Of a DNA stretch of 32,025 nucleotides, positions 640 to 31,099 are shown piece after piece. The stretch covers positions 1-32,025 of the forward strand of contig VXRD01000040.1 in assembly GCA_009838845.1 (NCBI GenBank), read 5' to 3'. The notes beneath the pieces are model-generated. The model ran no database searches, was not told the DNA's origin, and saw only the letters and a program-made list of their open reading frames with translations. The translations under genes were made by a program, and so were the position numbers. Within the stretch, counting starts at the first letter, position 1; each line of letters begins with the position of its first letter. Origin of the DNA: Gemmatimonadota bacterium (GTDB lineage Bacteria > Latescibacterota > UBA2968).

Positions 640-640
640 A

Positions 641-12664: not shown

Positions 12665-13486
12665 CTATCCATAGGCCATTTCGGGGTGTTTTCCGAGGAC
12701 GCGCAGGAGGCGTTCGTCGGCGCCTTCGAGGACGTAATCTGGCATGTGATAGTTGAGATAGGGCCAGAATCGCTGGGCGACGAAACGCTGACCATAGACC
12801 TGGTGAAAGAGATAGCGGATGCGGTCGGATGTATTGGGGGCACCGCGATGCCAGGTCTGGCTGCTGAGGAGGTAGAGGTCTCCTGCTTTCATGTGCAGAG
12901 ATTTTGGTTCTTGACCGTCGAAGGTTGGATTTTCCGGATCGTTGGGTTGTCTGCCCGCGTAGTGGCTGCCCGGCACGAATTGGCTGGGGCCATACTGGTC
13001 TTCATTCTGGTCTGTCAGGGCGATCTGGAACGACATGCGGAAAACGGGCATCTGAAGACGCCTGTCATGACCGCTGATATTGTCATCCGTAATGGGAAAT
13101 TCCAGGCTGTCATCTACGTGAAAGCGGTTAATGCCGAGATCTGTGCGGTTCAAGATGCATCCCTGTGCCATGCAATGGCACTGTGCCCCGAGGACTGTTT
13201 CGGCGATAGATATGATAGGCTCGCGCACGAGCAGGTCGCGGAACATCCGGTCGCATTCAAATAGCCGATGCACAACGATGGGTTCTTTGCCATCGTGCTG
13301 CGGCTTTATTTTTACATTTCGCATTTCAGCGAAATAGGGTTCTGCAAAGATCTGATCGACGCGTCTGCATATTTGCTCGCATTCTTCCCGAGATAAGACG
13401 TTTCGGATGATGGTCGCGCCGTTTTTATAAAAATCTTCGAGAATCGGCGATAATTCTTCTTCTGTAAAGGGTTCGTGAAGTGACAT
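12665..13486 (-). CDS. Phytanoyl-CoA dioxygenase family protein (HxD form)
   Basis: This non-haem Fe(II)/2-oxoglutarate oxygenase belongs to the PhyH family. The facial triad is intact: H123-V-D125 (RFHVDDS) and H213 (QTWHRGAPN), with an arginine (R222 or R224) to bind 2-oxoglutarate. The conserved FVPGSH turn is at about 170-175. At 273 residues it is a normal family length and has no signal peptide. Relatives hydroxylate small molecules; the substrate cannot be deduced. GAGAGGA precedes the ATG. It is the last gene of the six-gene operon, 15 bases after the sulfatase gene, and converges on the toxin-antitoxin locus. Confidence 0.92.
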   Translation of the reverse strand: MSLHEPFTEEELSPILEDFYKNGATIIRNVLSREECEQICRRVDQIFAEPYFAEMRNVKIKPQHDGKEPIVVHRLFECDRMFRDLLVREPIISIAETVLGAQCHCMAQGCILNRTDLGINRFHVDDSLEFPITDDNISGHDRRLQMPVFRMSFQIALTDQNEDQYGPSQFVPGSHYAGRQPNDPENPTFDGQEPKSLHMKAGDLYLLSSQTWHRGAPNTSDRIRYLFHQVYGQRFVAQRFWPYLNYHMPDYVLEGADERLLRVLGKHPEMAYG

Positions 13487-13501
13487 GGGATATTCCTCTC
13501 C

Positions 13502-14944
13502 TCAAATCGCGCCTTTGGGTACGCCTTTGCCGACGTGGGGAAGCAGGCCCTGGATGGGCTGCCCGGGCGCCAGTTTTCCATTCTGGACAAATCCCTCTGG
13601 ACGCCCTGTGAGTTCCTCAATCAGTTGATCGCGCCACCAGGCCAATCGGTCGGGACGCTCGCGGGACAGGTCGTTGATTTCGCGGGGGTCTTCGGTTAGA
13701 TCAAAGAGCAATTCTCTTCCCGTCTGGGTAAACCAGGCGTACTTCTCCTTGCCGTCCGTGAGCCACTGATTGGCAGATGTCGCGTGTTCTCCGTGTATAA
13801 ACGGACGCCAATTATTCCCGCCGCAATTCAACACACTTTCGCCGTCGAGATCGGCAGGGGTATCGATTCCCGCGATGTCGCAGAAGGTTGGGAAGATGTC
13901 CCGCAGTTCTACCGGCGATTCTACGAGGGATTCACGCGGCACTGCGCCAGATGTTCTGGGCATTCGCAGGATGAAGGGCACGCGAGCGGATCCGTCATAG
14001 GGCACGCCTTTTCCCACATGGTTGTGATCGTATAGCATTTCGCCGTGATCCGCGGTGAAGAGTATGGCTGTGTTGTCCTGGACATCGTATTCGTTGAGCG
14101 CCATGATCATGCGGTTGATCTGGAAATCGATGTGTGAAATCTGTGCGTAATACGCTCTTCGGGCATAGGCCACCAGCGCCGGGTCTCGTGGGATTGGGCT
14201 GTCGTGGCCGCCCTTGCGGAGTTCGTGGTCAACCCAGTTTCCCATGGCGGGTGGGGGAATGTCCTTTTGCAAATATCGATTCAAGAAAGACGCGGGAGGG
14301 TCCAGCGGTGGGTGGGGCCGGTGGTAGGACAGCGTGAGGAAGAAGGGTTTGGATGTATCGCGTCTGCGCAAGAAGTCAATGCCCTGCGAGGTCACCCAAC
14401 TCGTGGGGTGAAGCATTTCGTGGTAGGGCCAGGCTTGCGCTGCGTATCCATTGCATCCCACGCCAGAGTCGTTGTGGTCGGCATAGACCGCGCCGAGTTT
14501 TTCCCGAAGCCAGGGGGTGTAATCGTCGTTCAATCCAAATTCGCGGTTTTCCCGCCGGGCGCGATGCATATAGCCGTCGTGTAGTACGACGTTGTGAAAA
14601 CCCACGAGATTGCGCCAGGGATAGACGTGCATTTTGCCGACGCACTGGGTGTGATAACCCGCATCTGATAGGGTTCCGGGGAGGGTCACTGGATAGTCCC
14701 ACTGCACGCCGCCGTTGGTGAGATATCCGTGGCGCTTGGGGGCGAGGCCCGTGAGGATCGTGGCGCGAGCAGCAACGCATACCGGGCACGAGGCATAGGC
14801 CTGGGTAAATGTGACACCTTCGTCTGCCAGACGATCCAGGTGGGGAGTTTCAACTGCGGGATGACCGGTATATCCCAGGCAATCTCCTCGCCATTGATCG
14901 GTCAGGATAAAGAGTATATTGGGAGAAGTTTCGGTTGTCGGCAT
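13502..14944 (-). CDS. Sulfatase with a CxAxR active-site motif
   Basis: This is a full-length sulfatase (480 residues) of the alkaline phosphatase superfamily. PNILFILTDQWRGD provides the first metal aspartate; FTADHGEMLYDH provides the second metal pair and a catalytic histidine region. The formylglycine site reads C56-V-A-A-R60, so the usual proline is alanine. This still fits the wider C/S-x-P/A-x-R consensus described for sulfatases matured by formylglycine-generating enzymes, especially the radical-SAM type. No signal peptide is seen, so it probably acts in the cytoplasm. AGGAGA is well placed before the ATG. It lies between two PhyH genes with 15-base gaps, so its substrate is probably shared with those oxygenases. 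Confidence 0.94.
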   Translation of the reverse strand: MPTTETSPNILFILTDQWRGDCLGYTGHPAVETPHLDRLADEGVTFTQAYASCPVCVAARATILTGLAPKRHGYLTNGGVQWDYPVTLPGTLSDAGYHTQCVGKMHVYPWRNLVGFHNVVLHDGYMHRARRENREFGLNDDYTPWLREKLGAVYADHNDSGVGCNGYAAQAWPYHEMLHPTSWVTSQGIDFLRRRDTSKPFFLTLSYHRPHPPLDPPASFLNRYLQKDIPPPAMGNWVDHELRKGGHDSPIPRDPALVAYARRAYYAQISHIDFQINRMIMALNEYDVQDNTAILFTADHGEMLYDHNHVGKGVPYDGSARVPFILRMPRTSGAVPRESLVESPVELRDIFPTFCDIAGIDTPADLDGESVLNCGGNNWRPFIHGEHATSANQWLTDGKEKYAWFTQTGRELLFDLTEDPREINDLSRERPDRLAWWRDQLIEELTGRPEGFVQNGKLAPGQPIQGLLPHVGKGVPKGAI

Positions 14945-14959
14945 TGGGTGTATCTCCTG

Positions 14960-15751
14960 TTATCCCCTTCGCTTGTTGGCTAAAACCCAGACGTCGCGGA
15001 AGAAAGACTGACGGCTTTCTTCCAGGCGATTGATCACGACCGGGTTCATGCAGGGCTTGGGTTCGTGGAATCGCACGGTTACGTGATTGTACGCGATGAG
15101 GATGGCGCGTCGCGGATTGTCCGGATTGGTCCAGGTAGATCCCGTGTGCCGCACGCCTTCTGAAAATACGACGAGGCTTCCCGGCGGGCAGCCATAGGTT
15201 TCCCAAACCCCCGAGTTTGGATTATCGGCTTCTTCGGGCCAGGTGCCGTCCTGGGCGGAAGCGAGATTGGCTTTGTGCGAGCCGGGAACGAGGCAGGTGC
15301 CGCCCTGGCCTTTTTTTACCTCGTTCAATTCCCAGACAATGCGCGTCATTGCGCTGTAGATGCGACCGTTGTGGAAGCGAAAGGAAAACGAAGGGTGGAG
15401 ATTTGTTCCTCCCACGTGTGGCCGCCACTCGTTGCCGGTTTTCTCAGCGGACCGGCCAGATATGAATACGCTTTCCAGTCGGATGCGCTCCCGATCCTGG
15501 TCAATGACTTCTTGCAGAATGCCCATGACGCGCGGGTGATCGATTAAAAATTCCGTGGGACCAGAAATGGGCGAGCGATGGTGTTCGGGAAGGCTTTCGG
15601 GCGTTTTCATATACGTTTCGATATGGTCGCGTGCGATCGCGATTTCTTCGTCGGTGAGCACACTGGGGATGACGAGAAAGCCTTTTAAGTCGAAGAGGAA
15701 TTTTTCGTAATCCGACATGGGCAAATGCTCACGCGCTGTTTTCTCAGACAT
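14960..15751 (-). CDS. PhyH-family oxygenase, apparent HxG variant (HVG)
   Basis: This phytanoyl-CoA dioxygenase-family protein of 263 residues has the conserved LVPGSHKAN turn (155-162) and a distal histidine H202 with R214/R215 (EGVRHTGS then NPRRAILIAYNH). Where the iron-binding HxD is expected it reads H112-V-G114 (RPHVGGT), so the carboxylate ligand seems absent. A similar change to glycine or alanine defines Fe/2OG halogenases such as SyrB2 and WelO5, but it may also mark a PhyH clade with another ligand set. I chose the ATG at 15751: AGAGGAG is nine bases upstream, and the longer GTG start would overlap the previous gene. The gap to the upstream PhyH gene is 14 bases. Confidence 0.88.
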   Translation of the reverse strand: MSEKTAREHLPMSDYEKFLFDLKGFLVIPSVLTDEEIAIARDHIETYMKTPESLPEHHRSPISGPTEFLIDHPRVMGILQEVIDQDRERIRLESVFISGRSAEKTGNEWRPHVGGTNLHPSFSFRFHNGRIYSAMTRIVWELNEVKKGQGGTCLVPGSHKANLASAQDGTWPEEADNPNSGVWETYGCPPGSLVVFSEGVRHTGSTWTNPDNPRRAILIAYNHVTVRFHEPKPCMNPVVINRLEESRQSFFRDVWVLANKRRG

Positions 15752-15765
15752 GGGCTTTTTCTCCT

Positions 15766-16584
15766 CTATTTTTCGGGCCACGGTCGAAACAAATTGCGCT
15801 GTTCTTTTGTATATCGCGCCAGTGTGTGCGATGTGATATGCTGGGGTTCATCCATGGTGGCGATATTTTGCGACATCATCCAGTAGGGACCATAGCCTAC
15901 GTGGATGGTTTTGCGGACTTGATCTGAGCGGTTGGTCAAGCCACCGTGCCGCAGGTGTTCTGTAAAAAAGATCGCGTCGCCCGCTTTGGCTTCCAATCCG
16001 ATCATTCCCGGTTCTACATCAGGGTCGTTGTCATAAGGGCAGAGCAAGGTGCTTTTGTGCGTGCCGGGGACGACGCAAAACGCGCCTTGTTCATTGGTGA
16101 CATCGTGTATAAAGTAAATCATGCGCACCATCATGCAGTCGATGCGATCACCACTGGTATAGCGGTATTTTTGATTTTCCGGTCTCGTGCCGCCGTGGCT
16201 GCGCGATGTATTGTTTTTGTACCGAATGCGGATCTCTGAATTGTTGATGGTGTAGCGACCGCGGATAACGGTTTGCACGTATGGCAATGTTTTTTCGTGG
16301 TTTACCAGGAGATCAAATGTTGAATCTGCATTCCAAAAGTCTTCTATGATCAGGGTTTTCCCCTCGGCACATGATCCCTGAACGTGGTAGCCTTTCTCCT
16401 TGTTGACGTGATATTCGGCTCCCCATGCACTGTGTTTTCGAGGCGGTAGAGCGACATTGGATAGGGCGTGTTCTTCCAATTTGTCAACGGCTTTGCGCAG
16501 GGTTTGCACTTCTGCATTCGTGAGCAGGTTTTTGATTGTGATATATCCCTGGCGGTCAAATTCGTATTGTTCGACTTCGTTCAT
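15766..16584 (-). CDS. PhyH-family oxygenase, apparent HxG variant (HGG)
   Basis: This PhyH-family protein of 272 residues is paralogous to the next gene downstream. The proximal motif is H130-G-G132 (SRSHGGTRPE), again without the usual aspartate two residues after the histidine. The distal ligand H213 (EHLRHGGLTN) and R224 are present, and the VVPGTHKS turn is at about 171-178. The fold and the 2-oxoglutarate site therefore look preserved while the iron site is altered. Alignment of the GGT triplet with the downstream paralogue puts the two histidines one residue apart, so which histidine binds iron is not certain. GGAAGGA lies before the ATG. It starts 14 bases after the HlyD-like gene. 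Confidence 0.88.
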   Translation of the reverse strand: MNEVEQYEFDRQGYITIKNLLTNAEVQTLRKAVDKLEEHALSNVALPPRKHSAWGAEYHVNKEKGYHVQGSCAEGKTLIIEDFWNADSTFDLLVNHEKTLPYVQTVIRGRYTINNSEIRIRYKNNTSRSHGGTRPENQKYRYTSGDRIDCMMVRMIYFIHDVTNEQGAFCVVPGTHKSTLLCPYDNDPDVEPGMIGLEAKAGDAIFFTEHLRHGGLTNRSDQVRKTIHVGYGPYWMMSQNIATMDEPQHITSHTLARYTKEQRNLFRPWPEK

Positions 16585-16598
16585 TGTGGTCCTTCCCG

Positions 16599-17927
16599 TT
16601 AGTTCTTCCGGAATAACAGCATTGCGATTCGTCTTTCTCCCACCACGACCTTCACAATTGCCTTGATATAGATGGGTTTTTTTAGCAATGCCAGTTCCCG
16701 GACTTTTGCCTTGAGCACCGGATGTGGATCGTCGATTCTGATCACGCCCTTAAAAGAACGCTTTGATTTTTCGGCATCGACCATCTGTCCGTTCTGGACC
16801 ATCTCGTTATTCTCTGGCTCATCGGCATCCATCTCGATAATCATACTCAGATCTGTGATTTCATTTACGGATAGGGGCAGTCCACCCGTGTCGAATTGCC
16901 GTTCCACAATGCGGTCTTGAAGCGTATTCTGGATTTCCTGTTGAATCTCGTTGGGAAAAGTGTGAATCCTGAATTCCGCGGTGTGGGTACCTTCGATGAC
17001 TGTGCCGGTTAGCGCTATCCGGTTTAATGGCTCGGCTTCGATCTTTTCTCCGGGATCGAGTGGCCCGGCATTTTGCACGTTTAATGTGCTGTGGAGATCT
17101 ATTTTTTTTACCTTGCCGAGTGCGAATACCGTGTCGTCTTCTATCGTGACGAGTTTGCCCGAAAAATACTCTTCCAATTGCTTGGTGACCTGACCATCCG
17201 AGATATCGTTGAATTGCGCAAATCCCGTGCTCCACCAATCCGGCAAATCGAGGTCTGTTCTCAGTATTTCGCCGTCTCCATAAGTTGTAATCAATTCAAT
17301 CTGAGCCGGTTGACCGACGCGTGCGAGCCTTTGTGCGGCACCTTTTAGACCTGCGGAAATTCGCAGATCGTCAAAATCCAGGATACGCGCGATTTCGTCT
17401 CCTTTCGGTACAACTGTTCCGACGACTTCCTTCTCGAACAGGATGACGCCGGCGTGCGTGGCTGTCAATGTTTCGCGCTGGGATAGCTCTTGTTCCCAGG
17501 CGGACGTCGCACTTCTCATTACGCCCTGAAGCTCCCGTTCCGATAGAGTTAGAGAAGATGATATTGCAAGACTGTCGAGTTCACCACTCAGTTCTTCTGC
17601 AACTTGTTTTGCGCGATAGCGGTTGACCTGGGATTTATCTCTGGAAATTTCAAATAGTGGCTGACCAATTGTTACGTCAGTTTTATTTTTTACCAGTGCT
17701 TCTATGACTATGGCATCCTCATCAGAAGATAGGACATATTCGTGCGGCTTGATCGGTTCGGCATTAGATAACACGAGGTCTTCTGTCTTCGTAAACCACA
17801 GAAAGGCGATGGCTGCGGCGACCGCAAAAACAAAGCCATATCCGAATATTTCCAGATATTTGACATACTTCGCGATAAATCTGCGGGTTCTCAAGTTCTG
17901 TGTTTTCGGTTTCTCTGTCGTTTGCAT
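16599..17927 (-). CDS. HlyD-like membrane fusion (adaptor) protein
   Basis: This 442-residue protein has one N-terminal membrane helix (about 27-45, GYGFVFAVAAAIAFLWF) after a basic cytoplasmic tail, with the remainder predicted outside the inner membrane. A lipoyl-like barrel-sandwich domain is split by a helical hairpin rich in E, L and S (about 95-150). Its second half contains GVILFEKEVVGTVVPKGDEIARI, followed by barrel domains. This is the layout of adaptors that link an inner-membrane transporter to an outer-membrane channel, although overall similarity to classical HlyD is weak by eye. It lies 30 bases after an ABC exporter gene in the same transcript, so it probably serves that exporter. 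No outer-membrane TolC-like gene is in the window. Confidence 0.75.
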   Translation of the reverse strand: MQTTEKPKTQNLRTRRFIAKYVKYLEIFGYGFVFAVAAAIAFLWFTKTEDLVLSNAEPIKPHEYVLSSDEDAIVIEALVKNKTDVTIGQPLFEISRDKSQVNRYRAKQVAEELSGELDSLAISSSLTLSERELQGVMRSATSAWEQELSQRETLTATHAGVILFEKEVVGTVVPKGDEIARILDFDDLRISAGLKGAAQRLARVGQPAQIELITTYGDGEILRTDLDLPDWWSTGFAQFNDISDGQVTKQLEEYFSGKLVTIEDDTVFALGKVKKIDLHSTLNVQNAGPLDPGEKIEAEPLNRIALTGTVIEGTHTAEFRIHTFPNEIQQEIQNTLQDRIVERQFDTGGLPLSVNEITDLSMIIEMDADEPENNEMVQNGQMVDAEKSKRSFKGVIRIDDPHPVLKAKVRELALLKKPIYIKAIVKVVVGERRIAMLLFRKN

Positions 17928-17957
17928 TTTTTTACCTGTGGTTATGAGAAGATCGCG

Positions 17958-19754
17958 TTACCCAACTTGTCTGGTATCATCCAGGCCGAGGTATCGCCGG
18001 TACATCTCTGCGTACTCGCCTCCATTGCGAATCAGTTCTGCGTGTATCCCTTGTTCGAGGATCTGACCGTCGCCGAGAACGATGATCAGGTCGGCATTTG
18101 CCACTGTTGTGAGTCTGTGAGAGACTATGAATGTGGTGCGTCCTTCTGCCACGCGGTCCAGGCTTTGTAAAAATCGCTGTTCTGTGGCGCTGTCCAGGGA
18201 TGATGTGGGCTCGTCCAGAATGAGAATTTTGGGATCGCGAACCATGGCCCGGGCAATCCCGATCCGCTGTTTCTGACCCCCTGAGATTCGCGTGCCTTCT
18301 CGAAGGTCGGTGTCATATCCGTTGCGTTGGGATGAGGCAAATGCGTCTATGTCCGCCAGTTGGGCGGCTCTGACCACCTCATCGTCAGATGCATGGGGCT
18401 GACCGAATAGGATATTTTCTTTGATTGTTCCGTTGAACAAATGCGTTTCCTGTAAAACCAGACCAACCTGGTCCTGATAGGTGCTCGATTTTACTTCTCT
18501 GAGGTCCTGGCCATCTACTATTACCCTGCCCGAATCCGGGTCGTATAGCCGGAGAAGCAGGTTCGCTACCGTGGTTTTGCCCGATCCACTGTGTCCCACC
18601 AGGGCGATTTTTTGACCTGCCTGAACGGTGAAGCTCAGGTTGCGCAGGATCGGTGTGCCATCCTCGTAAGAAAAGGAAACATTGTCAAAGACGACATCGC
18701 CCCTGACAGGTGGCATTGCCGGTGCATTGGGACGGTCTGTAACAGCGGGAACCTGATCCAGTGTTTCGAGAATGCGCTCGGCGGGAACCATTGCAATGCG
18801 AACTTGCTGAAAATACCGAATCAGGACTTGAATGGGATTGGACAGGCGATTCGTATAGGAGAAAATGGGGAAGACAGACCCATAGGAGAGGTTGCCTAAA
18901 ATAACTTCTCTGAGAAAGTACAGTCTTATCAGTCGATTTTTTAAATAGGGAAGCAGGCCGTTATTGCGCGCGAGTTCTCCTTCGATGACACGCATATAAA
19001 ACAGGCGCATCGCGGCGCGATATCCTTCGATGGTGAGATTGAGATATCGCTTTACTTCGTGCCGACGCCGACCAAATGTCTGTACGACAGCTGCCCCGGC
19101 AACGCCTTCTTGAAGCCCGGCGTCGCGCGCCTGCCATCTCTCTCTTACGCGGCGATCGAATCTGCGCTGTATGGTCGCGATCTTCTGGGCGACCATTCCA
19201 TAAGGGATTGAGTAAATCAGAATGACCAGCGAGACTCGCCAGTCCAACCAGGTGGTGAAGATGAGTATGAGTATGAACTCATAGACCGCACGCAATGTCG
19301 CTGGCAAGATGTCCGTAATCATGCGCATTACGGCCCCCGTATCTGCGCTGGCGCGATACATGTGCTCGCCAATACCACGACTCTCGTAGAAGGTCATGGA
19401 GAGACGCTGGAGGTGGGTGAAGAAGTGGGTTTTGAGGGCTAAGCTCACGCGTAGATCTACGTAGTGATTGAGTATGGTCGTCATGGTACCGACCAATCTC
19501 TGAATCAGAACAAGCACGACATAGGCGACAAAGATACTGTAGAACAGGTTCCAATCTTGATTTGGAAATGCATCATCGATGAGAAACTTGCTCAGCCACG
19601 GATTCACAACCCGAAACGTGCTGACGACAATCGTGCCCATTACGACGAGCAGTGCCTTATCCCAGACGGGAATCATTAGCCTGAGAAAACGCAGAAAGAC
19701 TCTTATGAGTGACTGTTTTACCCCCTTGCGGGGAGGAGGAAAATAGTTGAACAT
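17958..19754 (-). CDS. ABC exporter half-transporter (fused membrane and ATPase domains)
   Basis: This type IV ABC exporter half of 598 residues has six transmembrane helices (about 30-330) followed by an ATPase domain. Walker A is G387-HSGSGKT, the signature motif is SGGQKQR from 491, Walker B is ILILDE (510-515) and the switch histidine is H546. All are intact, so it can hydrolyse ATP. The membrane domain keeps the RGIGEHMYRASADT segment found also in the second ABC gene at 22410-24263, so the two are paralogues and probably form a heterodimer. The ribosome-binding site is weak. It is the first gene of the operon that continues with the HlyD-like adaptor, three PhyH genes and a sulfatase. 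Confidence 0.92.
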   Translation of the reverse strand: MFNYFPPPRKGVKQSLIRVFLRFLRLMIPVWDKALLVVMGTIVVSTFRVVNPWLSKFLIDDAFPNQDWNLFYSIFVAYVVLVLIQRLVGTMTTILNHYVDLRVSLALKTHFFTHLQRLSMTFYESRGIGEHMYRASADTGAVMRMITDILPATLRAVYEFILILIFTTWLDWRVSLVILIYSIPYGMVAQKIATIQRRFDRRVRERWQARDAGLQEGVAGAAVVQTFGRRRHEVKRYLNLTIEGYRAAMRLFYMRVIEGELARNNGLLPYLKNRLIRLYFLREVILGNLSYGSVFPIFSYTNRLSNPIQVLIRYFQQVRIAMVPAERILETLDQVPAVTDRPNAPAMPPVRGDVVFDNVSFSYEDGTPILRNLSFTVQAGQKIALVGHSGSGKTTVANLLLRLYDPDSGRVIVDGQDLREVKSSTYQDQVGLVLQETHLFNGTIKENILFGQPHASDDEVVRAAQLADIDAFASSQRNGYDTDLREGTRISGGQKQRIGIARAMVRDPKILILDEPTSSLDSATEQRFLQSLDRVAEGRTTFIVSHRLTTVANADLIIVLGDGQILEQGIHAELIRNGGEYAEMYRRYLGLDDTRQVG

Positions 19755-19954: not shown

Positions 19955-22405
19955 ATGTTTAATCTGATCGGAAATTACGCCAAAATTGCTATCAGGAATT
20001 TGATGCGGAACAAAGTGTATTCCGCGCTCAATATCCTCGGTTTGGGCATCGCCATGTCCTGCTGCCTTTTAATCGTGTTGTTTTTACAACGCGAACTGCA
20101 ATACGATCACAGATATGAAAAGGGGGATCGCATTTACAAGGTTGTGCGAGAAATAAATATCCAGGGCGGATCGCGCAATTTTTCCTGGGGTACGTCGGGA
20201 TCTTTGGCCCCCGCGTTGCAACGCGATTTCCCCGAAGTGGAGTCAGCTATTCGAATATGGCCCTGGAATGTGAAGGTCGAACGCGAGAATATTTTGTTTC
20301 CCACACGGCTCAATCGCGTTGACAAACACGTATTTGACGTGTTTGAAGCCGAATTTGTTCAGGGCAGCGCACAGACGGCTTTTGAAGATCCAACGAGTAT
20401 TGTGATTACCGAGCGCATGGCGAATGTTATCTACGGCGAGGAAAACCCGATGGGCAGGGTGCTCACCGTTGTCAATTCGATTTTTGGAGGCGATTATATT
20501 GTGCGGGGTGTGTTGAAAGATCGCTTCGAACCCACGACAATCCCGTTTAATATGTTCATATCGAGAGACCCCAATGCCCAATGGAGTAACAAATTGCACA
20601 GATGGGATCCGGCTGCGGGTTTTCGACCGGTACAAACCTATATTTTGCTTCAAGAAGGTGTTTCTCCCAAAACACTGGAGCAAAAATTTCCAGATTTTAT
20701 AACGCGCTATATGGGCGCAGAAATCCAAAAATACAATGCGTATCATCTTCAACCCCTGCATCGGGTCTATTTGCATTCGCGCGCAGATTACGACATCCAG
20801 AGCTTCGGCGATATCGATCAACTCTATACGATGTGTGTGATTGCTGCATTTATTCTGATCATTGCCTGCGTGAACTTTATGAATCTGGCGACAGCCCAAT
20901 CAGTCCGGCGCGCAAGAGAGGTGGGCTTGCGAAAAGTGGTCGGTGCCAGTCGCGGGCAGTTGATCCAGCAATTTCTGGGAGAGTCCCTGATTGTCGCCTG
21001 TCTCGCGTCGTTGCTGGCACTTATTGTTGCGCACGCGGCACTGCCCGTGTTTAATGATTTGATCCAGCAAAATCTGGTATTAGATCTCAGGGCATATATG
21101 ACTTTGATCCCGGCGTTGATCGGCGTGGTACTGGTATCCGGGATACTCGCCGGAGGTTATCCCGCCTTTGTTTTATCTGCCTGGCAACCGATTGATACAT
21201 TGAAGAGCCAGGTTCAATCCAGATCGGGTGGTTCGTGGTTCTGGAAGGGTCTGGTGATATTCCAATTTTCAATTTCGATTTTTTTGATCGTAGGGACGCT
21301 GGTCGTGCGCAACCAGATCTCTTATATGCTGGATCGGGATCTGGGGGTTGATACAGAACATCTGGTCATGTTACCCATTTTTATTTCGAGCCGGGAGGCG
21401 CATTTTGTTCACGCCAACCGCCTGTCGTCGCGATACAGTACTGTGAAGCAGTCGTTTTTGAGGCATCCCAATGTCGTTGGGGCAACAGCATCTCAGTATC
21501 GCGCCTTTCCCAGCGGGGGTGGCTCGCGGAGCAAGCCCATTCGCCCAGAGGATTTGCCGGGAGATGACTGGTGGATTCTGATCAACGAGGTCGATCAGGA
21601 CTTTGTAAAAACAATGGGTATCGAGCTGGTTGCTGGCAAAAACTTCACCCCGGGCAAGGGCAATCCCCTCAGGGGATGGACGCGCGAATTTCTGATCAAT
21701 GAGTCGGCAGCCAAATTATTTGGCTGGGATAATCCCATCGGCAAACAAATTCAGAAGCTGGATGGGGGCGGCGGCACGGGTACTGTTGTGGGCGTGTTTA
21801 AGGATTACCATTTTGATTCCTTAAAAGAAAAAATCGCGCCCCTCGCATTTGTCAAGTGGGCCAGGCTATATGCGTATTTAACGCTTAAAATAAAGGGCGG
21901 ACAGTTTGTAGAGACGATGGATTTTTTGGAAGAGGAATGGTATAAGTTCGTGCCCAACGAAGCGTTTAACCCCATTTTTATGGACGATGGATTAGCATCT
22001 GCGTACCGCAATGAACTTCGCCTGAGAAGAATTGCTGGCATTTCTTCATTGCTGGCGATCGTGGTGTGCTGTTTGGGTCTGTTCGGTTTGGCCGCTATCT
22101 CTGCCCAACGGCGCACAAAGGAGATTGGTGTGCGCAAGGTGCTCGGTGCGTCTGGCGGACAAATTGTGACGATGTTTTCAGCCGAATTTGTCAAGCTGGT
22201 CGCGTTTGCCAGTCTTATTGCCTGGCCTCTGGCTTATTATATGCTCAATGACTGGTTAGCCGATTTTGCCTATCGCATCGGTCTGGATATCTCGGTATTT
22301 GTATTGAGCAGTGTACTGGCTATTGCCATTGCCCTGATCACTGTGAGTTACCAGGCCTGGAAAGCGGCGCAGACCAATCCGATTGAGGCGCTTAAGTACG
22401 AATAG
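19955..22405 (+). CDS. FtsX/MacB-type ABC permease, no linked ATPase
   Basis: This 816-residue inner-membrane protein has the double MacB/FtsX architecture: a first helix (about 22-45), a large periplasmic MacB-like core domain, an FtsX block of three to four helices starting near 285, a second periplasmic domain, and a final three-helix FtsX block near 690-800. The cytoplasmic coupling sequences are typical: REVGLRKVVGASRGQ and KEIGVRKVLGASGGQ. Such permeases move lipids, peptides or drugs, or transmit force, with a separate LolD/MacB-like ATPase. None is encoded in this window. AGGAG precedes the ATG. It lies head to head with the ABC gene at 17958-19754 and ends four bases from the convergent ABC gene at 22410. 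Confidence 0.92.
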   Translation: MFNLIGNYAKIAIRNLMRNKVYSALNILGLGIAMSCCLLIVLFLQRELQYDHRYEKGDRIYKVVREINIQGGSRNFSWGTSGSLAPALQRDFPEVESAIRIWPWNVKVERENILFPTRLNRVDKHVFDVFEAEFVQGSAQTAFEDPTSIVITERMANVIYGEENPMGRVLTVVNSIFGGDYIVRGVLKDRFEPTTIPFNMFISRDPNAQWSNKLHRWDPAAGFRPVQTYILLQEGVSPKTLEQKFPDFITRYMGAEIQKYNAYHLQPLHRVYLHSRADYDIQSFGDIDQLYTMCVIAAFILIIACVNFMNLATAQSVRRAREVGLRKVVGASRGQLIQQFLGESLIVACLASLLALIVAHAALPVFNDLIQQNLVLDLRAYMTLIPALIGVVLVSGILAGGYPAFVLSAWQPIDTLKSQVQSRSGGSWFWKGLVIFQFSISIFLIVGTLVVRNQISYMLDRDLGVDTEHLVMLPIFISSREAHFVHANRLSSRYSTVKQSFLRHPNVVGATASQYRAFPSGGGSRSKPIRPEDLPGDDWWILINEVDQDFVKTMGIELVAGKNFTPGKGNPLRGWTREFLINESAAKLFGWDNPIGKQIQKLDGGGGTGTVVGVFKDYHFDSLKEKIAPLAFVKWARLYAYLTLKIKGGQFVETMDFLEEEWYKFVPNEAFNPIFMDDGLASAYRNELRLRRIAGISSLLAIVVCCLGLFGLAAISAQRRTKEIGVRKVLGASGGQIVTMFSAEFVKLVAFASLIAWPLAYYMLNDWLADFAYRIGLDISVFVLSSVLAIAIALITVSYQAWKAAQTNPIEALKYE

Positions 22406-22409
22406 GGTC

Positions 22410-24263
22410 TCAATCGGCTGCATCGACGTCTGTGCCCAACTGCATCTGCTCATCCCATATTCTGCGGTAGAGACCGTTTGCTGATAGCAAGTCGTCGTGT
22501 GTGCCATTTTCGACGATTCTGCCCTGATCCAAAACGTAGATTCGGTCTGCTTTTTGAACGGTCATGAGTCTGTGAGAAACCATCACGGTGGTTCGCCCCT
22601 CCGATACGTTCCAGATCGTGTCCATGACGTGTTCTTCCGATCGAGAATCCAGGTTCGAGGTCGCTTCATCCAGAATGAAAACCGCGGGATCTCTGATCAG
22701 GGCGCGGGCAATGCCTATTCTTTGCTTTTGTCCGCCGGATAATCTCGTTCCCTCTCCAAGATCTCTTTCAAATCCCTCCGGGTGGGCGATGACGGCATCG
22801 TAAAGCGCGGCCATGCGGGCTGCTTCTTCTACGTCTGCGTCCGAAGCCTTTAGATTTCCATACCGGATATTCTCGCGGATAGTTCCGGAAAATAAAAAGG
22901 TGTCTTGAAGCACAACGCCGAGTTGATTGCGGTAGCTCAAGAGTCGGACATCTTTCAGGTCGTGTCCATCTACGAGAACCGATCCGGTGGTGGGATCGTA
23001 AAGCCTCAAGATGAGGTATAGCATTGAGGTCTTGCCCGATCCACTCGGTCCCACGAATGCGACGCGCTCTCCAGGACGGATTGTGATGTTGATATTTTCC
23101 AGCACGGGCTGTCCCGATTCGTATTCAAATCCCACGTTTCTGAATTCGATTGTGCCGCTGAGGGACGGTATGGTGCTCGCATCGGGCGCATCGCTTATCT
23201 CGGGTTGAACGTCAAGGGTTTGCAGGACGCGTTCGGCCTGGACGAGTTGAAGGCGAATGCTCTGGATCAGCCTGATCATTCTCTCCATCGGGCCTTCAAA
23301 TTGCCGGGCGAGGAAAAACACAACACTGAATTCTCCGATGCTCAACTCCCCGGTCATGGTGTGGTAACCTACGTAGAGCCACAACACTTTTTCAACGCCT
23401 TCAGAGAGAAACCACAGAACGCCCTGGTGCGTAAAGATATGTAGAACGCGGTACTTGATCCAATATCTGCGGTTCTCGATAAAAGTTGATGCATATCGGC
23501 GGGCAGACCAGCGCATGCGGCCGAAACCTTTGACGGTCTTGGTCGCGGCTATACCGTCTCTCAAGATCGTCCTCAGGTACTGTGCCTGCATTCTCATGTC
23601 CCATCGGACTCTCTGAAGGCGCGTGTAGAAGTAGTGGGATAGGGCTGTGTAGGGAAAGGAGTAGAGAAAAATCAGCACTGTGAGATAGGGATCGACCAGA
23701 CTGAGGATGATGCCCGTCCAGATAATCCGGTAGGCTATGGTGATCGCATTGGGAACATCGTCGGTGATCATGGTGATCAGGCCACCTCCGACGTCAGCAG
23801 TGCTGCGATACATGTGTTCGCCGATGGGCCGACTCTGAAGAAAGCCCAGGGAAAGTTTGTGGAGGTGGTCGTAGAAGATCGTGCGCAGGTGGATGGTGAC
23901 TTTCATGTCGATATACCACCCGAGGATACGCCGTGTTATTTGAGAGACATTCGAGATGATCCACATCAGGAATTGGATACCAAAGACAAAAAAGAAAAGC
24001 TGCAAGCGGCGATCTACTGGCAGGTCGATGTTCAGAATGACTTCATCGACCTGATATCGATTCAAAAAGACGCCTATCTCACGGAGCGGAACGCCTACCA
24101 TGATGAATAGCATCCCGAGGATGACTTTCGTCTTGTGGGGATACAGGTACTTGAAAAATCGCCAGAAGGTTTCCCATTCGCGGTTTGCCCGTTCCTGTTC
24201 TGGAGACCAGGCCGGACCTCGCCACACTTCGGGCTTTCTCTGTCGGATGTCGAGAATTCTCAT
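22410..24263 (-). CDS. ABC exporter half-transporter, probable partner of the 17958-19754 protein
   Basis: This second ABC exporter half of about 617 residues has a long charged N-terminal tail (about 30 residues) before six membrane helices and an ATPase domain. Walker A is GPSGSGKT near residue 400, the signature is LSGGQKQR, Walker B is VFILDE and the switch region is VSHRL. All catalytic residues are present. The RPIGEHMYRSTADV segment matches the other half-transporter. Two ATG codons are possible; GAGG overlaps the first and is six bases before the second, so I use 24263. The N-terminal ~30 codons and 20 bases upstream are duplicated at 26330-26439. The gap to the DUF6785-like gene upstream is about 85 bases. 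Confidence 0.92.
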   Translation of the reverse strand: MRILDIRQRKPEVWRGPAWSPEQERANREWETFWRFFKYLYPHKTKVILGMLFIMVGVPLREIGVFLNRYQVDEVILNIDLPVDRRLQLFFFVFGIQFLMWIISNVSQITRRILGWYIDMKVTIHLRTIFYDHLHKLSLGFLQSRPIGEHMYRSTADVGGGLITMITDDVPNAITIAYRIIWTGIILSLVDPYLTVLIFLYSFPYTALSHYFYTRLQRVRWDMRMQAQYLRTILRDGIAATKTVKGFGRMRWSARRYASTFIENRRYWIKYRVLHIFTHQGVLWFLSEGVEKVLWLYVGYHTMTGELSIGEFSVVFFLARQFEGPMERMIRLIQSIRLQLVQAERVLQTLDVQPEISDAPDASTIPSLSGTIEFRNVGFEYESGQPVLENINITIRPGERVAFVGPSGSGKTSMLYLILRLYDPTTGSVLVDGHDLKDVRLLSYRNQLGVVLQDTFLFSGTIRENIRYGNLKASDADVEEAARMAALYDAVIAHPEGFERDLGEGTRLSGGQKQRIGIARALIRDPAVFILDEATSNLDSRSEEHVMDTIWNVSEGRTTVMVSHRLMTVQKADRIYVLDQGRIVENGTHDDLLSANGLYRRIWDEQMQLGTDVDAAD

Positions 24264-24290
24264 TGCCATCCTCAGGTCTTATGAGACCTT
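24181..24290 (-). repeat. Direct repeat copy A (start of ABC gene)
   Basis: About 110 bases match copy B at 26330-26439 in the same orientation, with nine differences by eye and a run of 58 identical bases (24230-24287). This copy covers the first ~30 codons of the ABC gene, its start and about 20 upstream bases, including the palindrome AGGTCT-TATG-AGACCT. Confidence 0.9.
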
Positions 24291-24348: not shown

Positions 24349-26304
24349 TTAGTATAGCGCGAGTGAATGCCCGTCATCGGGAAACCAGATCAGATCAATG
24401 ACAAACGAAATCCCGACACCAACGAAATACCCCAGCATCATACCAAAGAAGAAGGGTGAGGCTTTACGATACAGGCTGATGCCGCCTATACGGAGGATGG
24501 CGGCTTTGGCGAACCAGGCGAAGAAAATCGAGAATATCGTGCGATTGGCAGGGTATGAGGTTGCCGAGACCAGGCCGATGGGGTGCAGCGGAAAAGCCGG
24601 ATAGATATAGCGGAGGACCATATTGGCGACGGTGACTGCAGTTCCGATCAGACCCCACAAGGCGAGATGTCGCTTCATTGCGAAGGGGTCGCGGATGTAA
24701 CCAACGCCTCTATCAAATACGGCCTGGACGGATCCCGCGTAGATGCTGCCGTAGTTGAATGCGCCCGTCTGGTAGCCGGAAGCGATCGCGTAATAGGCGC
24801 TGCCTCCCACAACAACGGCAACGGCGATTGCGACTGCGAGGATCATTCTTCCCCGGTCTTCGCGAACATCATCGAAGAGTTTCGTGGCGTTGGCCATAGG
24901 GGCCATCAGGACGGTTTTCAGATCGCGGTGCCAGGTGTAGGTCAACGCCAATGCCACAATGCTCTGCGCGTTCATGTTTGTGAGCCCGACAATATGGTAG
25001 GTCGCGAACTGTGCGTGTATGATGCGAGAGCTGATCAGTCCTGTTTCGATGCTGATCTTTGAGATCCCAAGCCAGACCACAATGACAAGGCCGACGAAGA
25101 CAAATGCCACATATACGGTCATTCCCGATGCGACGCACCACGCGCAGATGAACAGCGCACTGAGGATGAGTCCGAATACTGCTGAACGGTAGGAGAGCAT
25201 CTCCCGAGTATCGTCTATCGTCGGGTCCTTTATAAATGCCTTTCTGGCGACATCTCTCAAATGGCCGCGGGCGGTCCACAGTCCCCAGGGAATCAGGACG
25301 AAAAGTGCGCCAAGTCCTTGCCAGTTTTCAAAATCGGAAGTGTCTGCACGCAGTGGACCTGTTTCGAATCCAAATCTTCTGAACATACCAAGCTGAAACG
25401 TCAGGAACAGGAAGTAGATAATGATGCTTCCGGATACTTCGAGCTCAACGAAGTAAGAGGCACCGATGATCAGTGGATAGAATCGGGTCTCGATGGGGGG
25501 AAAGTCTCGACCCAGTTGGATAAGCCCGAAATCTCTTGGAATGGCCGGGAATAAGGGTGTGAAGTATCCGATCATGTTCCACATAATCGGGAAGATCGCG
25601 AAAGCGAAGCCGATCCAGAAAACAGGCTGGTTCATGAACCCGGCGGTGAAAAATCCACGAGGTTCTTCGTCCGCCATGTTCATCGGCAGCTTCATCAGGG
25701 GGAAGGAGAGCCGTTCGTTCTCGACCCACTGCTTCCGGAAGATCGCGACCATACAATAGCAGAAGCAGGCGACCGCGCCTACGAGCGATAGGCGCCAGGT
25801 CAACGGTATGAACCAGGCTCCCCACGGGATCGAAGCGCCGCGGGGGAGTCCTTCGTAGAACCATTTGGTAGCCATAACATCCGTTACGACTGCCCAATCG
25901 ACGAGATATGGATGCAGTTCGGTCGCCCAGCCGTTCTCGGATGATGGAAAGTAATAGGGCGCACCGATGTTCGCGATCATGTGCGCCATGAAGTAGCTGG
26001 GCAGAGCCGATCCAATCAGGGCCATTGCAAAGATGACGAGAAGCTCGGCTCTTGTGAGCATGGCCCCCGGGCGGATGGCCTGGATGACTTTGTTGAGGAT
26101 GACAGCGATGATGAAGAAGGGAACCATCACGCCCCAGGGGAGATGGTCCTGCGCCATTTTGGTCGTATGGCCGATGTGACGCGTGTAGTGACCGCCCCAG
26201 GCCATGAAAGTCACACACAGGGTACCCAGCGCAATGGATCGAGCCGTTATGGCGTGCCGAAGGGGACGAATCTCCGGTTCAGCTATGGGTTGTACCTCGG
26301 CCAA
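24349..26304 (-). CDS. DUF6785/OPT-like multi-pass membrane protein
   Basis: This 651-residue integral membrane protein has at least twelve hydrophobic segments spread along the sequence, for example near residues 23-43, 57-78, 85-112 and 170-190. The segment ENERLSFPLMKLP after the fourth hydrophobic stretch recalls oligopeptide-transporter (OPT)-like proteins and the DUF6784/DUF6785 family common in Planctomycetes and Poribacteria-type genomes. Function and substrate are unknown; uptake of an organic solute is a reasonable guess given the surrounding sulfatase and dehydratase genes. The start is TTG, supported by GGAGG six bases before it, and follows directly on an in-frame TGA that ends a short ORF. 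The gene is bracketed by 110-base direct repeats. Confidence 0.85.
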   Translation of the reverse strand: MAEVQPIAEPEIRPLRHAITARSIALGTLCVTFMAWGGHYTRHIGHTTKMAQDHLPWGVMVPFFIIAVILNKVIQAIRPGAMLTRAELLVIFAMALIGSALPSYFMAHMIANIGAPYYFPSSENGWATELHPYLVDWAVVTDVMATKWFYEGLPRGASIPWGAWFIPLTWRLSLVGAVACFCYCMVAIFRKQWVENERLSFPLMKLPMNMADEEPRGFFTAGFMNQPVFWIGFAFAIFPIMWNMIGYFTPLFPAIPRDFGLIQLGRDFPPIETRFYPLIIGASYFVELEVSGSIIIYFLFLTFQLGMFRRFGFETGPLRADTSDFENWQGLGALFVLIPWGLWTARGHLRDVARKAFIKDPTIDDTREMLSYRSAVFGLILSALFICAWCVASGMTVYVAFVFVGLVIVVWLGISKISIETGLISSRIIHAQFATYHIVGLTNMNAQSIVALALTYTWHRDLKTVLMAPMANATKLFDDVREDRGRMILAVAIAVAVVVGGSAYYAIASGYQTGAFNYGSIYAGSVQAVFDRGVGYIRDPFAMKRHLALWGLIGTAVTVANMVLRYIYPAFPLHPIGLVSATSYPANRTIFSIFFAWFAKAAILRIGGISLYRKASPFFFGMMLGYFVGVGISFVIDLIWFPDDGHSLALY

Positions 26305-26418
26305 TCAGAGCCTCCAGATCCATTGGTCGCGGCTTGCCCGTTCCTGTTCTGGAGACCATGCGGGATTTCGCCATACCCCGGGCTTTCTCTGTCGGATGTC
26401 GAGAATTCTCATTGCCAT
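26305..26418 (-). pseudogene. 37-residue ORF duplicating the ABC protein N-terminus
   Basis: The frame encodes 37 residues whose first ~28 match the N-terminus of the ABC half-transporter at 22410-24263 (MAMRILDIRQRKP then VWR-PAWSPEQERA) before diverging into DQWIWRL and a TGA. It keeps the same ATG-GCA-ATG start and GAGG sequence. It begins 19 bases after the sulfatase stop and ends directly at the TTG of the DUF6785-like gene, in the same frame. It is most simply a truncated duplicate. It could still be translated and act as a short leader coupled to the next gene. Confidence 0.75.
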
Positions 26419-26439
26419 CCTCAGGTCTTATGAGACTTT
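26330..26439 (-). repeat. Direct repeat copy B (start of 37-residue ORF)
   Basis: This is the second copy of the repeat at 24181-24290. Similarity stops at the sulfatase stop codon on one side and within the short ORF on the other. The palindrome in copy A is degraded here to AGGTCT-TATG-AGACTT. Confidence 0.9.
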
Positions 26440-27829
26440 AATTTTTATTCCTATTCTCGTGATCTGGATACACAACATTGAACACACGCGTTACCACATC
26501 GGGCGATGTGCGATTTTCAAAAGCCTCCAAAACCGGATCATTGGTTTCCCGCATTTGGGCCTGTAGAATCGCCCGTATTTCATCAGCTTTTGCACTGTAT
26601 TCCGGGTCGTCAATCAGGTTTTTCAAACAATTGGGGTCCTGCTCCAAATCGTATAACTCTTCCGGTACGCGATACCGAAACATCCGCACCCGTTCTGCAA
26701 TATCTGGATTGCCCGGTGCAGCCTCCTCCATTGCGTGCATCGTCAAGCCTTCATTGTTATTGCGGTACCGATAGTCATCTCGCACCCACATATTAAATAT
26801 GTACCCAAATTGATGATCCTGCACACACCGCATCGGCGTTGCTGCTCCACCAGCCTTAGAATCGATCTGCGTAAATACATGCTCTCGACCCTCCTGCTTT
26901 TCACCTCTCAGCAGCGGCACAAAAGATTGTCCATCCACACCATCCAAAGCGGGCAATCCAATCGCATCTAATGCGGTCGGCAAGAAGTCAATGCCGGACA
27001 TTAGTTCACTACATGTTGTACCCTCTTTTGCAACACCGGGCCACCGCACCAGCCACGGTGTGCGTGTACTCGCCAGATATACATTACACTTGGCAAACGG
27101 CACGGCCATCCCGTTATCCGACAAAAAAGCGACCAGTGTATTGTCTCGCAATCCCGACTCTTCCAGAGCATTCATCACCGCTCCAAATGTATCATCTAAG
27201 CGTCTCACCGAATTGTAATACCACGAAAGTTCTTTGCGAATCAATGGAAGATCAGGCAAGAATCCGGGCACTTCAATTTCATTGGGGTTATACAACCGCG
27301 ATGGCACCTCAGCACCACCCTTTGGTCCTTCATCTGGATTGTAAAATGGTCGATGGGGATCATGAGAGTTTACCATAAAATAAAAGGGTTTGTCGGCACT
27401 TTTACAGTTCTCGAAGAATTCCTTACAATACGCCCCATACTTCTGAGGACTACGGCCAAAACCCAGGTCTTCTTGATCCCGACTAAAATCCCATGTAATC
27501 GACTCTTTTGGCGTTGAATGATTCACTTTTCCGAGAAGGCCAGTCATATACCCCGCATCGCTCAACGTTTCGATGATCGTCGGTGTGTCCTCAAATGTAT
27601 GAAAAAATCCCATTCCGCCATTGTTATAACTATAGCGCCCGGTGTTCAATACATTGCGACTTGGCATACAAATGGCAACATTCACATGCCCATGACTGAA
27701 CCGCACACCCTCTTCGGCAAATGCATCCAGGTTGGGGGAGATATCTGGCACGTTTGATCCAAAACAACCGAGTGAATCGCAACCCAAATCATCTGCTGTG
27801 AACAGCAAGATATTTAATTTACCTACCAT
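26438..27829 (-). CDS. Sulfatase (canonical CxPxR)
   Basis: This sulfatase of 463 residues has the formylglycine motif C54-M-P-S-R58, the first metal aspartates in NILLFTADDLG (D13, D14) and the second metal pair in VAFLSDNGMAVPF. The DPHRPFYNPDEGP segment and the C-terminal YDLEQDPNCLKNLIDDPEY stretch are typical of heparan N-sulfatase-like (SGSH-like) enzymes. Without a signal peptide it is likely cytoplasmic. GAGGAT precedes the ATG. It follows the enolase-superfamily gene by 30 bases on the same strand, so desulfation and dehydration of one sugar acid is a plausible joint task. Confidence 0.93.
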   Translation of the reverse strand: MVGKLNILLFTADDLGCDSLGCFGSNVPDISPNLDAFAEEGVRFSHGHVNVAICMPSRNVLNTGRYSYNNGGMGFFHTFEDTPTIIETLSDAGYMTGLLGKVNHSTPKESITWDFSRDQEDLGFGRSPQKYGAYCKEFFENCKSADKPFYFMVNSHDPHRPFYNPDEGPKGGAEVPSRLYNPNEIEVPGFLPDLPLIRKELSWYYNSVRRLDDTFGAVMNALEESGLRDNTLVAFLSDNGMAVPFAKCNVYLASTRTPWLVRWPGVAKEGTTCSELMSGIDFLPTALDAIGLPALDGVDGQSFVPLLRGEKQEGREHVFTQIDSKAGGAATPMRCVQDHQFGYIFNMWVRDDYRYRNNNEGLTMHAMEEAAPGNPDIAERVRMFRYRVPEELYDLEQDPNCLKNLIDDPEYSAKADEIRAILQAQMRETNDPVLEAFENRTSPDVVTRVFNVVYPDHENRNKN

Positions 27830-27859
27830 ACGATCCTCACTTCTTCAAATCTTTGTCTG

Positions 27860-29011
27860 TCAATTTACCCTATACTTTTCCAGTGCATCCTCATCGAGTT
27901 CACATCCAAGTCCCGGCTTTGTCGGAACAATGGCTTCGCCCTTTTCAAATTGGATGCCATCTACAATCAGGTCATCTTCTCGCGTCCAACTCCCGACAAA
28001 ATCGCTGGGCATAACGCAATTTCGCGGCACACTTGCCGCGTGAAGATAGGCCATTTCCATTATGCCGAGGTCATTTCCAGATCCATGCCAGCAGGGAATA
28101 CCAGCGGCATCGGCAATTGCCGCGTTATGGACAAATTGCCACATGCTGCCCCCCAGATTGAAAATATCTACTGCTTCCACCTTGATTGCGTTGATGATGT
28201 CATGGGGATTCGCCAGATGCAATGCGACCGGGATTGTGGTTGCCGCTCTTAGCTGGCAATACCAATCCAGGTTCCATTTCGCCATTGGATCTTCGAGCAC
28301 ACCGACATTGCCGACTGCTTCGAATTGTTTTGCCAATGCAATGGCTTCTGCCGGGCGATAAAATCTCTGATTCGGATCGATTGTGCATTTGAACGATATA
28401 TCTGTGGCCTCCAGGATTGCCTGCACGCGAGCGACCATTGGTTCATCAGAGGTACATTTCATTTTTACACCGTGAAATCCGCGTTCGTAACCGAGCCGCG
28501 CATTGAGGGCTGAGTCTTCAGGCGTTTGATGGCCGATCCAGTAATCCGCTGGCACGCGGTCTCTGTACGCACCGCCGAGCAATTCGTGGACCGGGCAGCC
28601 TCGAATTTTGCCCACGATATCAAAAACAGCCATTTCAAAAGCTTCATAACCCGCGCCCGTTCCCCAGCCGGTCAAATTCTCCCAATCGCGTGTGCCGCCC
28701 CCATCTTCAGATACAACCGGATCTCTGAAAGGCAGGACTGTGTTGCGATGCGTGGCGGCTTCTCTGAATACGTTTTGCAGGCTCAGTTTGAGAGGGTCTC
28801 TTCCTTTGAGTTGGTTAAATCCCTGCCGAATTGCTTCTTCAGGCGTCCCGCGCGAGGTTTCTCCCAGTCCGTAAATCCCTTCATCGGTATTTAGCTTGAT
28901 GATGTGTTTGGGTACCTGGTCCCAGCCCGCAGGACCAAATGATGCGCTGTGTACACGGCCGGGTATGGTTGGAACAACAACTGTAATGATGTCGATGGAT
29001 GCGATTTTCAT
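27860..29011 (-). CDS. Mandelate racemase/muconate lactonizing enzyme family protein
   Basis: This enolase-superfamily enzyme abstracts a proton next to a carboxylate; relatives dehydrate or racemise acid sugars. The KxK catalytic motif is K183-M-K185, and the metal ligands include D212 (CTIDPNQ) and E240 (VLEDP). The third ligand position, usually acidic, appears as H265 in PVALHLANP. A C-terminal histidine (CWHGSG) may act as acid or base. It is 383 residues long. The ATG giving MKIASID is preceded by GGGGGAA, while the in-frame start eight codons earlier has no such site. The 29231-30277 gene on the other strand is a distant paralogue and the two share a 219-base divergent control region. 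Confidence 0.92.
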   Translation of the reverse strand: MKIASIDIITVVVPTIPGRVHSASFGPAGWDQVPKHIIKLNTDEGIYGLGETSRGTPEEAIRQGFNQLKGRDPLKLSLQNVFREAATHRNTVLPFRDPVVSEDGGGTRDWENLTGWGTGAGYEAFEMAVFDIVGKIRGCPVHELLGGAYRDRVPADYWIGHQTPEDSALNARLGYERGFHGVKMKCTSDEPMVARVQAILEATDISFKCTIDPNQRFYRPAEAIALAKQFEAVGNVGVLEDPMAKWNLDWYCQLRAATTIPVALHLANPHDIINAIKVEAVDIFNLGGSMWQFVHNAAIADAAGIPCWHGSGNDLGIMEMAYLHAASVPRNCVMPSDFVGSWTREDDLIVDGIQFEKGEAIVPTKPGLGCELDEDALEKYRVN

Positions 29012-29230
29012 GGCGTTTTCCCCCGCAGTGTACAAACACTGTTTTCACATTGACGTATAAGAATACCTGCATAAATTGATTACTGACGTTACACACACGA
29101 AATAATTCCGTCAAGGTTATTTATCGCGGGGTGGGTTAAGAATAGTCCTGTTAGAATGCTATTGTAAAGTGCTTTGGCACATATTATTTATCAGGATCTT
29201 TTATCGCTGTTTTTTACAAAGGAGGCTGTG
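29012..29230. promoter_or_regulatory. Divergent control region between two enolase-superfamily genes
   Basis: Both genes must be transcribed from here. The hexamer TGACGT occurs twice on the plus strand (29051 and 29084), 33 bases apart, which could mark an operator. TTGACG boxes are present on both strands, but no -10 box is convincing. Confidence 0.3.
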
Positions 29231-30277: not shown

Positions 30278-30280
30278 TGC

Positions 30281-31024: not shown

Positions 31025-31062
31025 GGTGACTCCCTTCAATATTGTGTGTGTAAAATCGCTTA

Positions 31063-31091: not shown

Positions 31092-31099
31092 TTGGGTTT

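Follow-up and report, generated by a model that had tools for sequence, protein, structure and literature searches.

A genus-restricted exporter operon of Candidatus Latescibacterota carrying two HxG PhyH proteins that most likely resemble HygX and AspH rather than halogenases

Introduction

Replacement of the HxD iron motif by HxG or HxA is the accepted mark of the Fe/2OG radical halogenases (PMC11186838, PMC12871659), and halogenase mining takes HxG/A as the sign of that class. Human AspH, a protein hydroxylase, coordinates its iron through two His ligands only; D721, four residues ahead of H725, holds a metal-bound water in the vacated site, the D721A variant is much less active, and the enzyme hydroxylates without halogenating (PMC13168262). 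HygX, the Fe/2OG oxygenase of hygromycin B biosynthesis (an aminoglycoside antibiotic pathway), has HxG, and its crystals bind iron or nickel together with 2OG according to the titles of its PDB entries (4XC9, 4XCA, 4XCB and 4ZPI).

Oxygenases of the PhyH family can be very numerous in candidate phyla. In the portion of the published account considered here, PhyH proteins are extremely expanded and mostly uncharacterized in sponge-associated Poribacteria (Kamke et al., 2014, PMC3909097). The host of the locus described below likewise belongs to a candidate phylum with a PhyH expansion, in this case the Latescibacterota, and neither HxG subtypes nor a six-gene operon of the present kind is described for Poribacteria in that portion of the account. 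A limited literature search found no paper on PhyH or sulfatase expansions in Latescibacterota. The other described systems closest to this locus are the S1 arylsulfatases (PRK13759/NF010322) and the type-I-like or MsbA-type exporters that work with HlyD adaptors.

The locus lies in a stretch of 32,025 nucleotides (contig VXRD01000040.1, assembly GCA_009838845.1), referred to here as the window. The same locus occurs in metagenome-assembled genome (MAG) records of Candidatus Latescibacterota, some of them filed as Gemmatimonadota, with the closed chromosome OX638329.1 among them. The organism is a marine bacterium, probably sponge-associated, judging from the record set and from literature on related phyla. 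Its genome of 5.75 Mb encodes at least 154 PhyH domains and at least 151 sulfatase domains.

Layout of the locus

Transcription proceeds from ABC1 through the HlyD-like adaptor, PhyH_HGG, PhyH_HVG and the sulfatase to PhyH_HxD. The genes, their active-site motifs and two adjoining transporter genes are as follows.

17958..19754, minus strand: ABC1, an MsbA/type-I-like ABC exporter half-transporter of 598 aa (PF00664 and PF00005)
16599..17927, minus strand: HlyD-like membrane-fusion adaptor of 442 aa with one N-terminal TM helix (PF13437, HlyD_3)
15766..16584, minus strand: PhyH_HGG, an HxG Fe/2OG-type oxygenase of 272 aa, predicted to be cytosolic (PF05721)
16189..16197, minus strand: H-G-G motif of PhyH_HGG, the metal His with Gly replacing Asp (from alignments)
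15946..15960, minus strand: E209-H-L-R-H213 of PhyH_HGG, the distal metal His and the acid four positions ahead of it
14960..15751, minus strand: PhyH_HVG, an HxG Fe/2OG-type oxygenase of 263 aa counted from the ATG (PF05721)
15410..15418, minus strand: H-V-G motif of PhyH_HVG, with H111 and G113 (numbering of window:14960-15748)
15146..15160, minus strand: E197-G-V-R-H201 of PhyH_HVG, the distal His and the acid four positions ahead of it
13502..14944, minus strand: S1-type (aryl)sulfatase of 480 aa, lacking a signal peptide (PF00884)
14765..14779, minus strand: C-V-A-A-R, the sulfatase active-site motif, identical in 9/9 congeneric loci
12665..13486, minus strand: PhyH_HxD, a canonical HxD Fe/2OG-type oxygenase (HVD) of 273 aa (PF05721)
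22410..24269, minus strand: ABC2, a second ABC half-transporter, outside the six-gene coordinates 12665-19754
19955..22405, plus strand: MacB/ADOP-type permease between ABC1 and ABC2 (PF12704/PF02687; TIGR03434 below its cut-off)

The sequence-only reading had described a six-gene minus-strand operon, and its structural description agrees with Pfam, which places the six open reading frames in the families claimed; the three PhyH genes score 67, 44.7 and 66.3 bits against a PF05721 gathering cut-off of 22, the matches spanning the entire domain. The reported gaps of 30, 14, 14, 15 and 15 bases hold when PhyH_HVG starts at the ATG (15751), while use of the upstream GTG (15781) would create a 16-base overlap with the preceding gene. 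A Shine-Dalgarno-like site of the AGG/GGAG type precedes all six starts, that of ABC1 being the weakest. The motifs HVD (12665-13486), CVAAR (sulfatase), HVG (14960-15751) and HGG (15766-16584) are all present. This spacing suggests that the six genes may form one transcript; a scan of the locus for sigma-70 promoter and terminator patterns performed no better than on shuffled sequence. Hydropathy analysis found no TM or signal segment in any of the four enzymes, so desulfation and oxidation would be cytoplasmic.

The two HxG oxygenases

The complete HxD...H iron triad is found in PhyH_HxD (HVD) and is lacking in PhyH_HVG (HVG) and PhyH_HGG (HGG), the key residues of the latter being H130-x-G132, E209, H213 and R224. 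All 18 aligned rows of PhyH_HVG, reaching down to 39% identity, keep the H-x-G-G motif, the distal His and the 2OG-type Arg unchanged. PhyH_HGG likewise keeps its first His, distal His and Arg in all of 15 aligned rows; its Gly position varies, with gaps in two rows and HMHG in the most distant (31%). The acid four positions ahead of the distal His (position -4) is invariant across orthologs of both proteins, for PhyH_HVG down to 39-46% identity.

The nearest solved relative of both proteins, by sequence and by fold, is HygX. Its profile matches have E values of 1e-12 to 1e-13, and in these alignments the two HGG motifs coincide, as do the two Glu residues; its fold matches reach 8e-11 for PhyH_HVG and 2e-16 for PhyH_HGG. 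HygX shares H-G-G in place of H-x-D and a Glu at position -4, the assignment of its metal ligands being drawn from the alignment together with the PDB entry titles. Identity in the structural alignments is 18-20%, and HygX serves an antibiotic pathway, whereas the HxG genes considered here stand in a metabolic operon or alone. At the aligned position -4, PAHX has Pro and AndA has Gly; both are HxD enzymes. Human AspH shares with the HxG PhyH proteins an iron site that has no carboxylate ligand in the HxD position and an acid at -4, a likeness that is functional and positional only.

Halogenation had been offered as one activity of these enzymes. Both proteins do carry a motif of the SyrB2/WelO5/AdaV kind (HxG/A), but no relationship in sequence or fold to a known halogenase was found for either: for both, halogenases were absent from PDB sequence matches up to E=10 and from the top 50 fold matches. 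With HygX as the nearest solved relative and an acid at -4 as in AspH, halogenation is not favoured, and PhyH_HVG and PhyH_HGG are most likely HygX/AspH-type oxygenases, as judged by homology and analogy. The acid at -4 would replace the missing Asp, either directly or through a bound water. This reading of a relocated carboxylate draws on HygX by alignment and on AspH by structure.

The same pattern recurs in a wider survey of PhyH motifs, which covered the window, 40 other stretches and one further stretch of the same genome. Among the 132 PhyH domains aligned, 90 have HxD, 21 HxG and 4 HxA, and the rest carry other motifs. Representatives of the window's own genome, taken at 60% identity, with a non-acid motif have the acid at -4 in 22 cases and lack it in 5, and those with HxD have it in 6 and lack it in 81; in other genomes the corresponding numbers are 11 and 1 for non-acid motifs and 2 and 38 for HxD. 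Three of the five own-genome representatives lacking the acid at -4 carry an Asp at -5. The association in the own genome has a Fisher value of 1e-13, a figure that overstates it, because there are only two well-supported independent contrasts (five if branches lacking support are counted). In the PhyH tree, the HxG proteins are mostly gathered in a single broad region with weak support. It is conceivable, at somewhat less than an even chance, that a large, conserved set of PhyH proteins from Latescibacterota, Poribacteria and cyanobacteria no longer has the HxD Asp and uses the acid at -4 in its place. If so, 'HxG plus E/D-x3-H' would mark oxygenases that resemble halogenases by motif only. 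Since 21 of 132 PhyH domains are HxG and nearly all of these have the acid at -4, the motif alone could mislabel many proteins of such symbionts as halogenases. The acid at -4 is proposed as a simple and testable second criterion for halogenase calls, and the assignment of the HxG proteins to the HygX/AspH type is a more useful outcome of this analysis than the operon itself.

Several further PhyH proteins in the survey depart from the common forms. Double-domain proteins of about 580-600 aa (L160:2-1765, L160:4783-6546, L161:638-2380, L165:635-2431 and L165:2574-4370) have an N-terminal domain devoid of both metal His residues (V/E/M/T-x-G...Q) and a C-terminal domain that keeps H-x-[GASN]-x-E-P with Asp at -5 of the distal His. 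Possible intermediates are an HxD protein with Glu at -4 nested among HxG proteins (L170:7587-8366) and a supported sister pair (L180:810-1517 and 1521-2270), one member having HxD with no acid and the other HxG with Asp at -4.

Sulfatase and exporter

The sulfatase scores 574 bits against the NF010322 arylsulfatase cut-off of 481 and has, as CVAAR, the [CS]x[PA]xR motif of a Cys-type S1 enzyme. Like described S1 arylsulfatases it thus exceeds a curated cut-off and has a Cys-type active site; it differs from them in reading CxAxR where CxPxR is common, and in having no signal peptide. Its nearest PDB relative is 7oz8, titled 'choline-sulfatase'. The window's genome contains nine FGE-type maturase domains, which could mature the operon sulfatase.

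The exporter genes have the ABC_membrane plus ABC_tran half-transporters and the one-TM HlyD-type adaptor of type-I-like or MsbA-type systems, but differ from these in having two different half-transporters and a very divergent adaptor. The Walker A, signature, Walker B and H-loop motifs of ABC1 are all intact, as are the nucleotide-binding motifs of ABC2. Relatives of ABC1 are found at 96-99% identity in ten congeneric genomes and at 66% in G021, a genome of another family. The adaptor, whose TM window lies at residue 27, belongs to a divergent family without a closely related solved structure (no PDB match better than E 0.057), and among 64 genomes of the phylum it occurs only in this genus and in G021 (43%). 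There, ABC2 (64%), ABC1 (66%) and the adaptor (43%) are arranged head to tail (L022 14841-20000), the contig stopping within the adaptor gene, so ABC2 (22410-24269) is the likely partner of ABC1. The two different half-transporters adjoin each other and the adaptor gene in G021, and are separated by the MacB-type gene here; from this gene order, ABC1 and ABC2 may be taken as a heterodimeric exporter with an HlyD adaptor. The description of ABC1 as an exporter half was correct in that it is a half-transporter, while the operon coordinates proposed with it omit the likely partner. The MacB/ADOP-type permease is found at this position in every congeneric locus that extends far enough, and is probably outside the operon. 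Pfam scans of the window found no gene for a TolC-type or other outer-membrane partner.

Conservation within the genus

The operon is present in nine loci of eight congeneric genomes, in the same order and on the same strand, 2/9 lacking PhyH_HGG; in G003 the contig stops ahead of the last operon gene. Gene order is intact across the nine loci at dS 0.1-0.46, and dN/dS is 0.01-0.27 for every operon gene, so that purifying selection acts on all six. The closed congeneric genome G008 lacks the adaptor, ABC1 and PhyH_HGG, and since the operon is not found there it is taken to be young. PhyH_HGG is missing from G006 and from one of two G010 copies; the latter copy retains the final codons of the gene (CCGAAAAATAG), which indicates that the gene was deleted. 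The conserved co-occurrence that the sequence-only reading called for is thus seen in order, strand and short gaps inside one genus, and fails elsewhere, where the enzymes occur apart from the exporter. On sequence evidence the operon is real but restricted to a single genus of Candidatus Latescibacterota, where it appears to be a recent genus-level assembly. Conservation of a six-gene pathway across phyla was considered and rejected, the exporter and adaptor being found only in one genus and in G021 (adaptor 43%).

Other irregularities were seen in individual genomes. The G010 MAG holds two near-identical operon copies (L020 and L021; one lacks PhyH_HGG), which are probably two strains binned together. 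In G009 an in-frame stop interrupts the adaptor gene (L019:9469-10768), which may be decaying there, or the stop may be an assembly error. G005 was at one point a candidate for a genome lacking the adaptor and was dismissed, as its contig ends just past ABC1.

Relatives of the enzymes outside the genus

Orthologs of the three PhyH genes occur in other genera and families at 64-93% identity, away from this exporter and among unrelated neighbours, an outcome that the sequence-only reading had named as refuting it and that is seen here for the PhyH genes. Five genomes of a different family (f4; L144-L146, L152) carry PhyH_HxD at 92-93% identity. Prolyl-tRNA synthetase (ProRS) is only 53-55% identical in 4/5 of these, the fifth giving no match, and this disparity marks a clear, recent horizontal transfer. 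Orthologs of PhyH_HVG (66-82%) and of PhyH_HGG (64-79%) are found in many other genomes, mostly as solitary genes with no exporter; PhyH_HVG in particular is found widely across Latescibacterota, Poribacteria and cyanobacteria, and usually stands alone. The neighbours of the oxygenase orthologs include metabolic enzymes (amidohydrolase-2, ADC-like and GFO/IDH/MocA); PhyH_HGG orthologs in f4 often adjoin an amidohydrolase-2 gene, and PhyH_HxD orthologs an ADC-like gene. For the sulfatase, no ortholog above about 49% was found outside the genus among the genomes searched.

The f4 neighbours of PhyH_HxD include a PIN-domain gene as well as the ADC-like gene. Cyanobacterial relatives of PhyH_HVG (46-53%) come from Xenococcus, Hyella, Pleurocapsa and Calothrix, and are solitary with varied neighbours (L220-L233).

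What the operon may do

The interpretation of the locus as a dedicated tailoring-and-export pathway is only partly upheld: the unit is conserved within one genus, and a joint pathway is possible, but its dedication to tailoring and export is not supported. The reading preferred here, to which about an even chance is given, joins a two-subunit exporter and its adaptor to four cytosolic enzymes in a catabolic or detoxifying unit, in which the HxG enzymes would be of the HygX/AspH type. In the cytoplasm, the sulfatase would desulfate a small sulfated compound, whose organic part the oxygenases would hydroxylate or oxidatively cleave using O2, 2-oxoglutarate and iron, and the exporter would expel the compound or its products. 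Such a unit would have been assembled from enzymes that the lineage holds in hundreds. The substrate, the direction of flux, the coupling of enzymes to exporter and the role of the acid are all parts of this proposal that we infer.

Because the operon is young and its enzymes occur apart elsewhere, the enzymes and the pump may instead be unrelated passengers, the enzyme genes having been inserted singly behind the promoter of an expressed exporter and co-transcribed only by position. This explanation, appreciably less probable than the catabolic or detoxifying unit but a serious contender, agrees with the exporter-less orthologs of each PhyH gene among unrelated neighbours, the recent movement of PhyH_HxD between families and the deletion of PhyH_HGG in a G010 strain, last codons left behind. 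PhyH and sulfatase genes are also so numerous that chance neighbours are expected: with at least 150 copies of each in the genome, their co-occurrence in one operon is unremarkable. Their pairing is moreover a genome-wide habit, since 38 of the 150 PhyH genes listed have a sulfatase within 2.5 kb, compared with about 18 at random (150 of each listed). What speaks for more than positional association is an order intact over nine loci at dS 0.1-0.46, with purifying selection on every gene.

Biosynthetic tailoring and export, in which the HxG enzymes would halogenate or cyclise a natural product that is then desulfated and secreted by the type-I-like pump, draws on the accepted halogenase mark, on the place of HygX in an antibiotic pathway and on the presence of an ABC exporter with adaptor. 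It is nonetheless unlikely: no core biosynthetic gene (NRPS/PKS or other) was detected by Pfam among the 20 larger window genes scanned, the oxygenase orthologs are solitary or have catabolic enzymes as neighbours, the HxG proteins share the acid at -4 with the non-halogenating AspH, and the sequence and top-50 fold matches hold no halogenase. Equally improbable is that the HxG proteins are catalytically dead paralogs retained for binding or regulation. Prolyl 4-hydroxylase becomes inactive when its Asp is lost (D414A/G), and the N-terminal domain of some double-domain PhyH proteins here has lost both metal His residues, but orthologs of the two operon proteins all keep both His, the 2OG-type Arg and the acid at -4 (for PhyH_HVG to 39-46%), and crystalline HygX, with HxG, holds metal and 2OG. 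The catabolic or detoxifying unit remains the preferred reading, and the operon illustrates how, through transfer and loss, these bacteria build metabolic units out of their stock of PhyH and sulfatase genes.

The genes around the operon (window 31-771 and 24349-31879) form a metabolic island comprising further sulfatases, a DUF6785/DUF6784 protein, two enolase-superfamily genes, an SDR and another PhyH. One of these sulfatases (26438-27829) had been taken to lack the active-site motif, a view that was discarded as its sequence reads CMPSR. A denser grouping of oxygenase genes is seen in G014 (L134:7035-10574), where four PhyH genes follow one another; among them are the outside ortholog nearest to PhyH_HGG (79%) and a gene related to PhyH_HxD at 38%.
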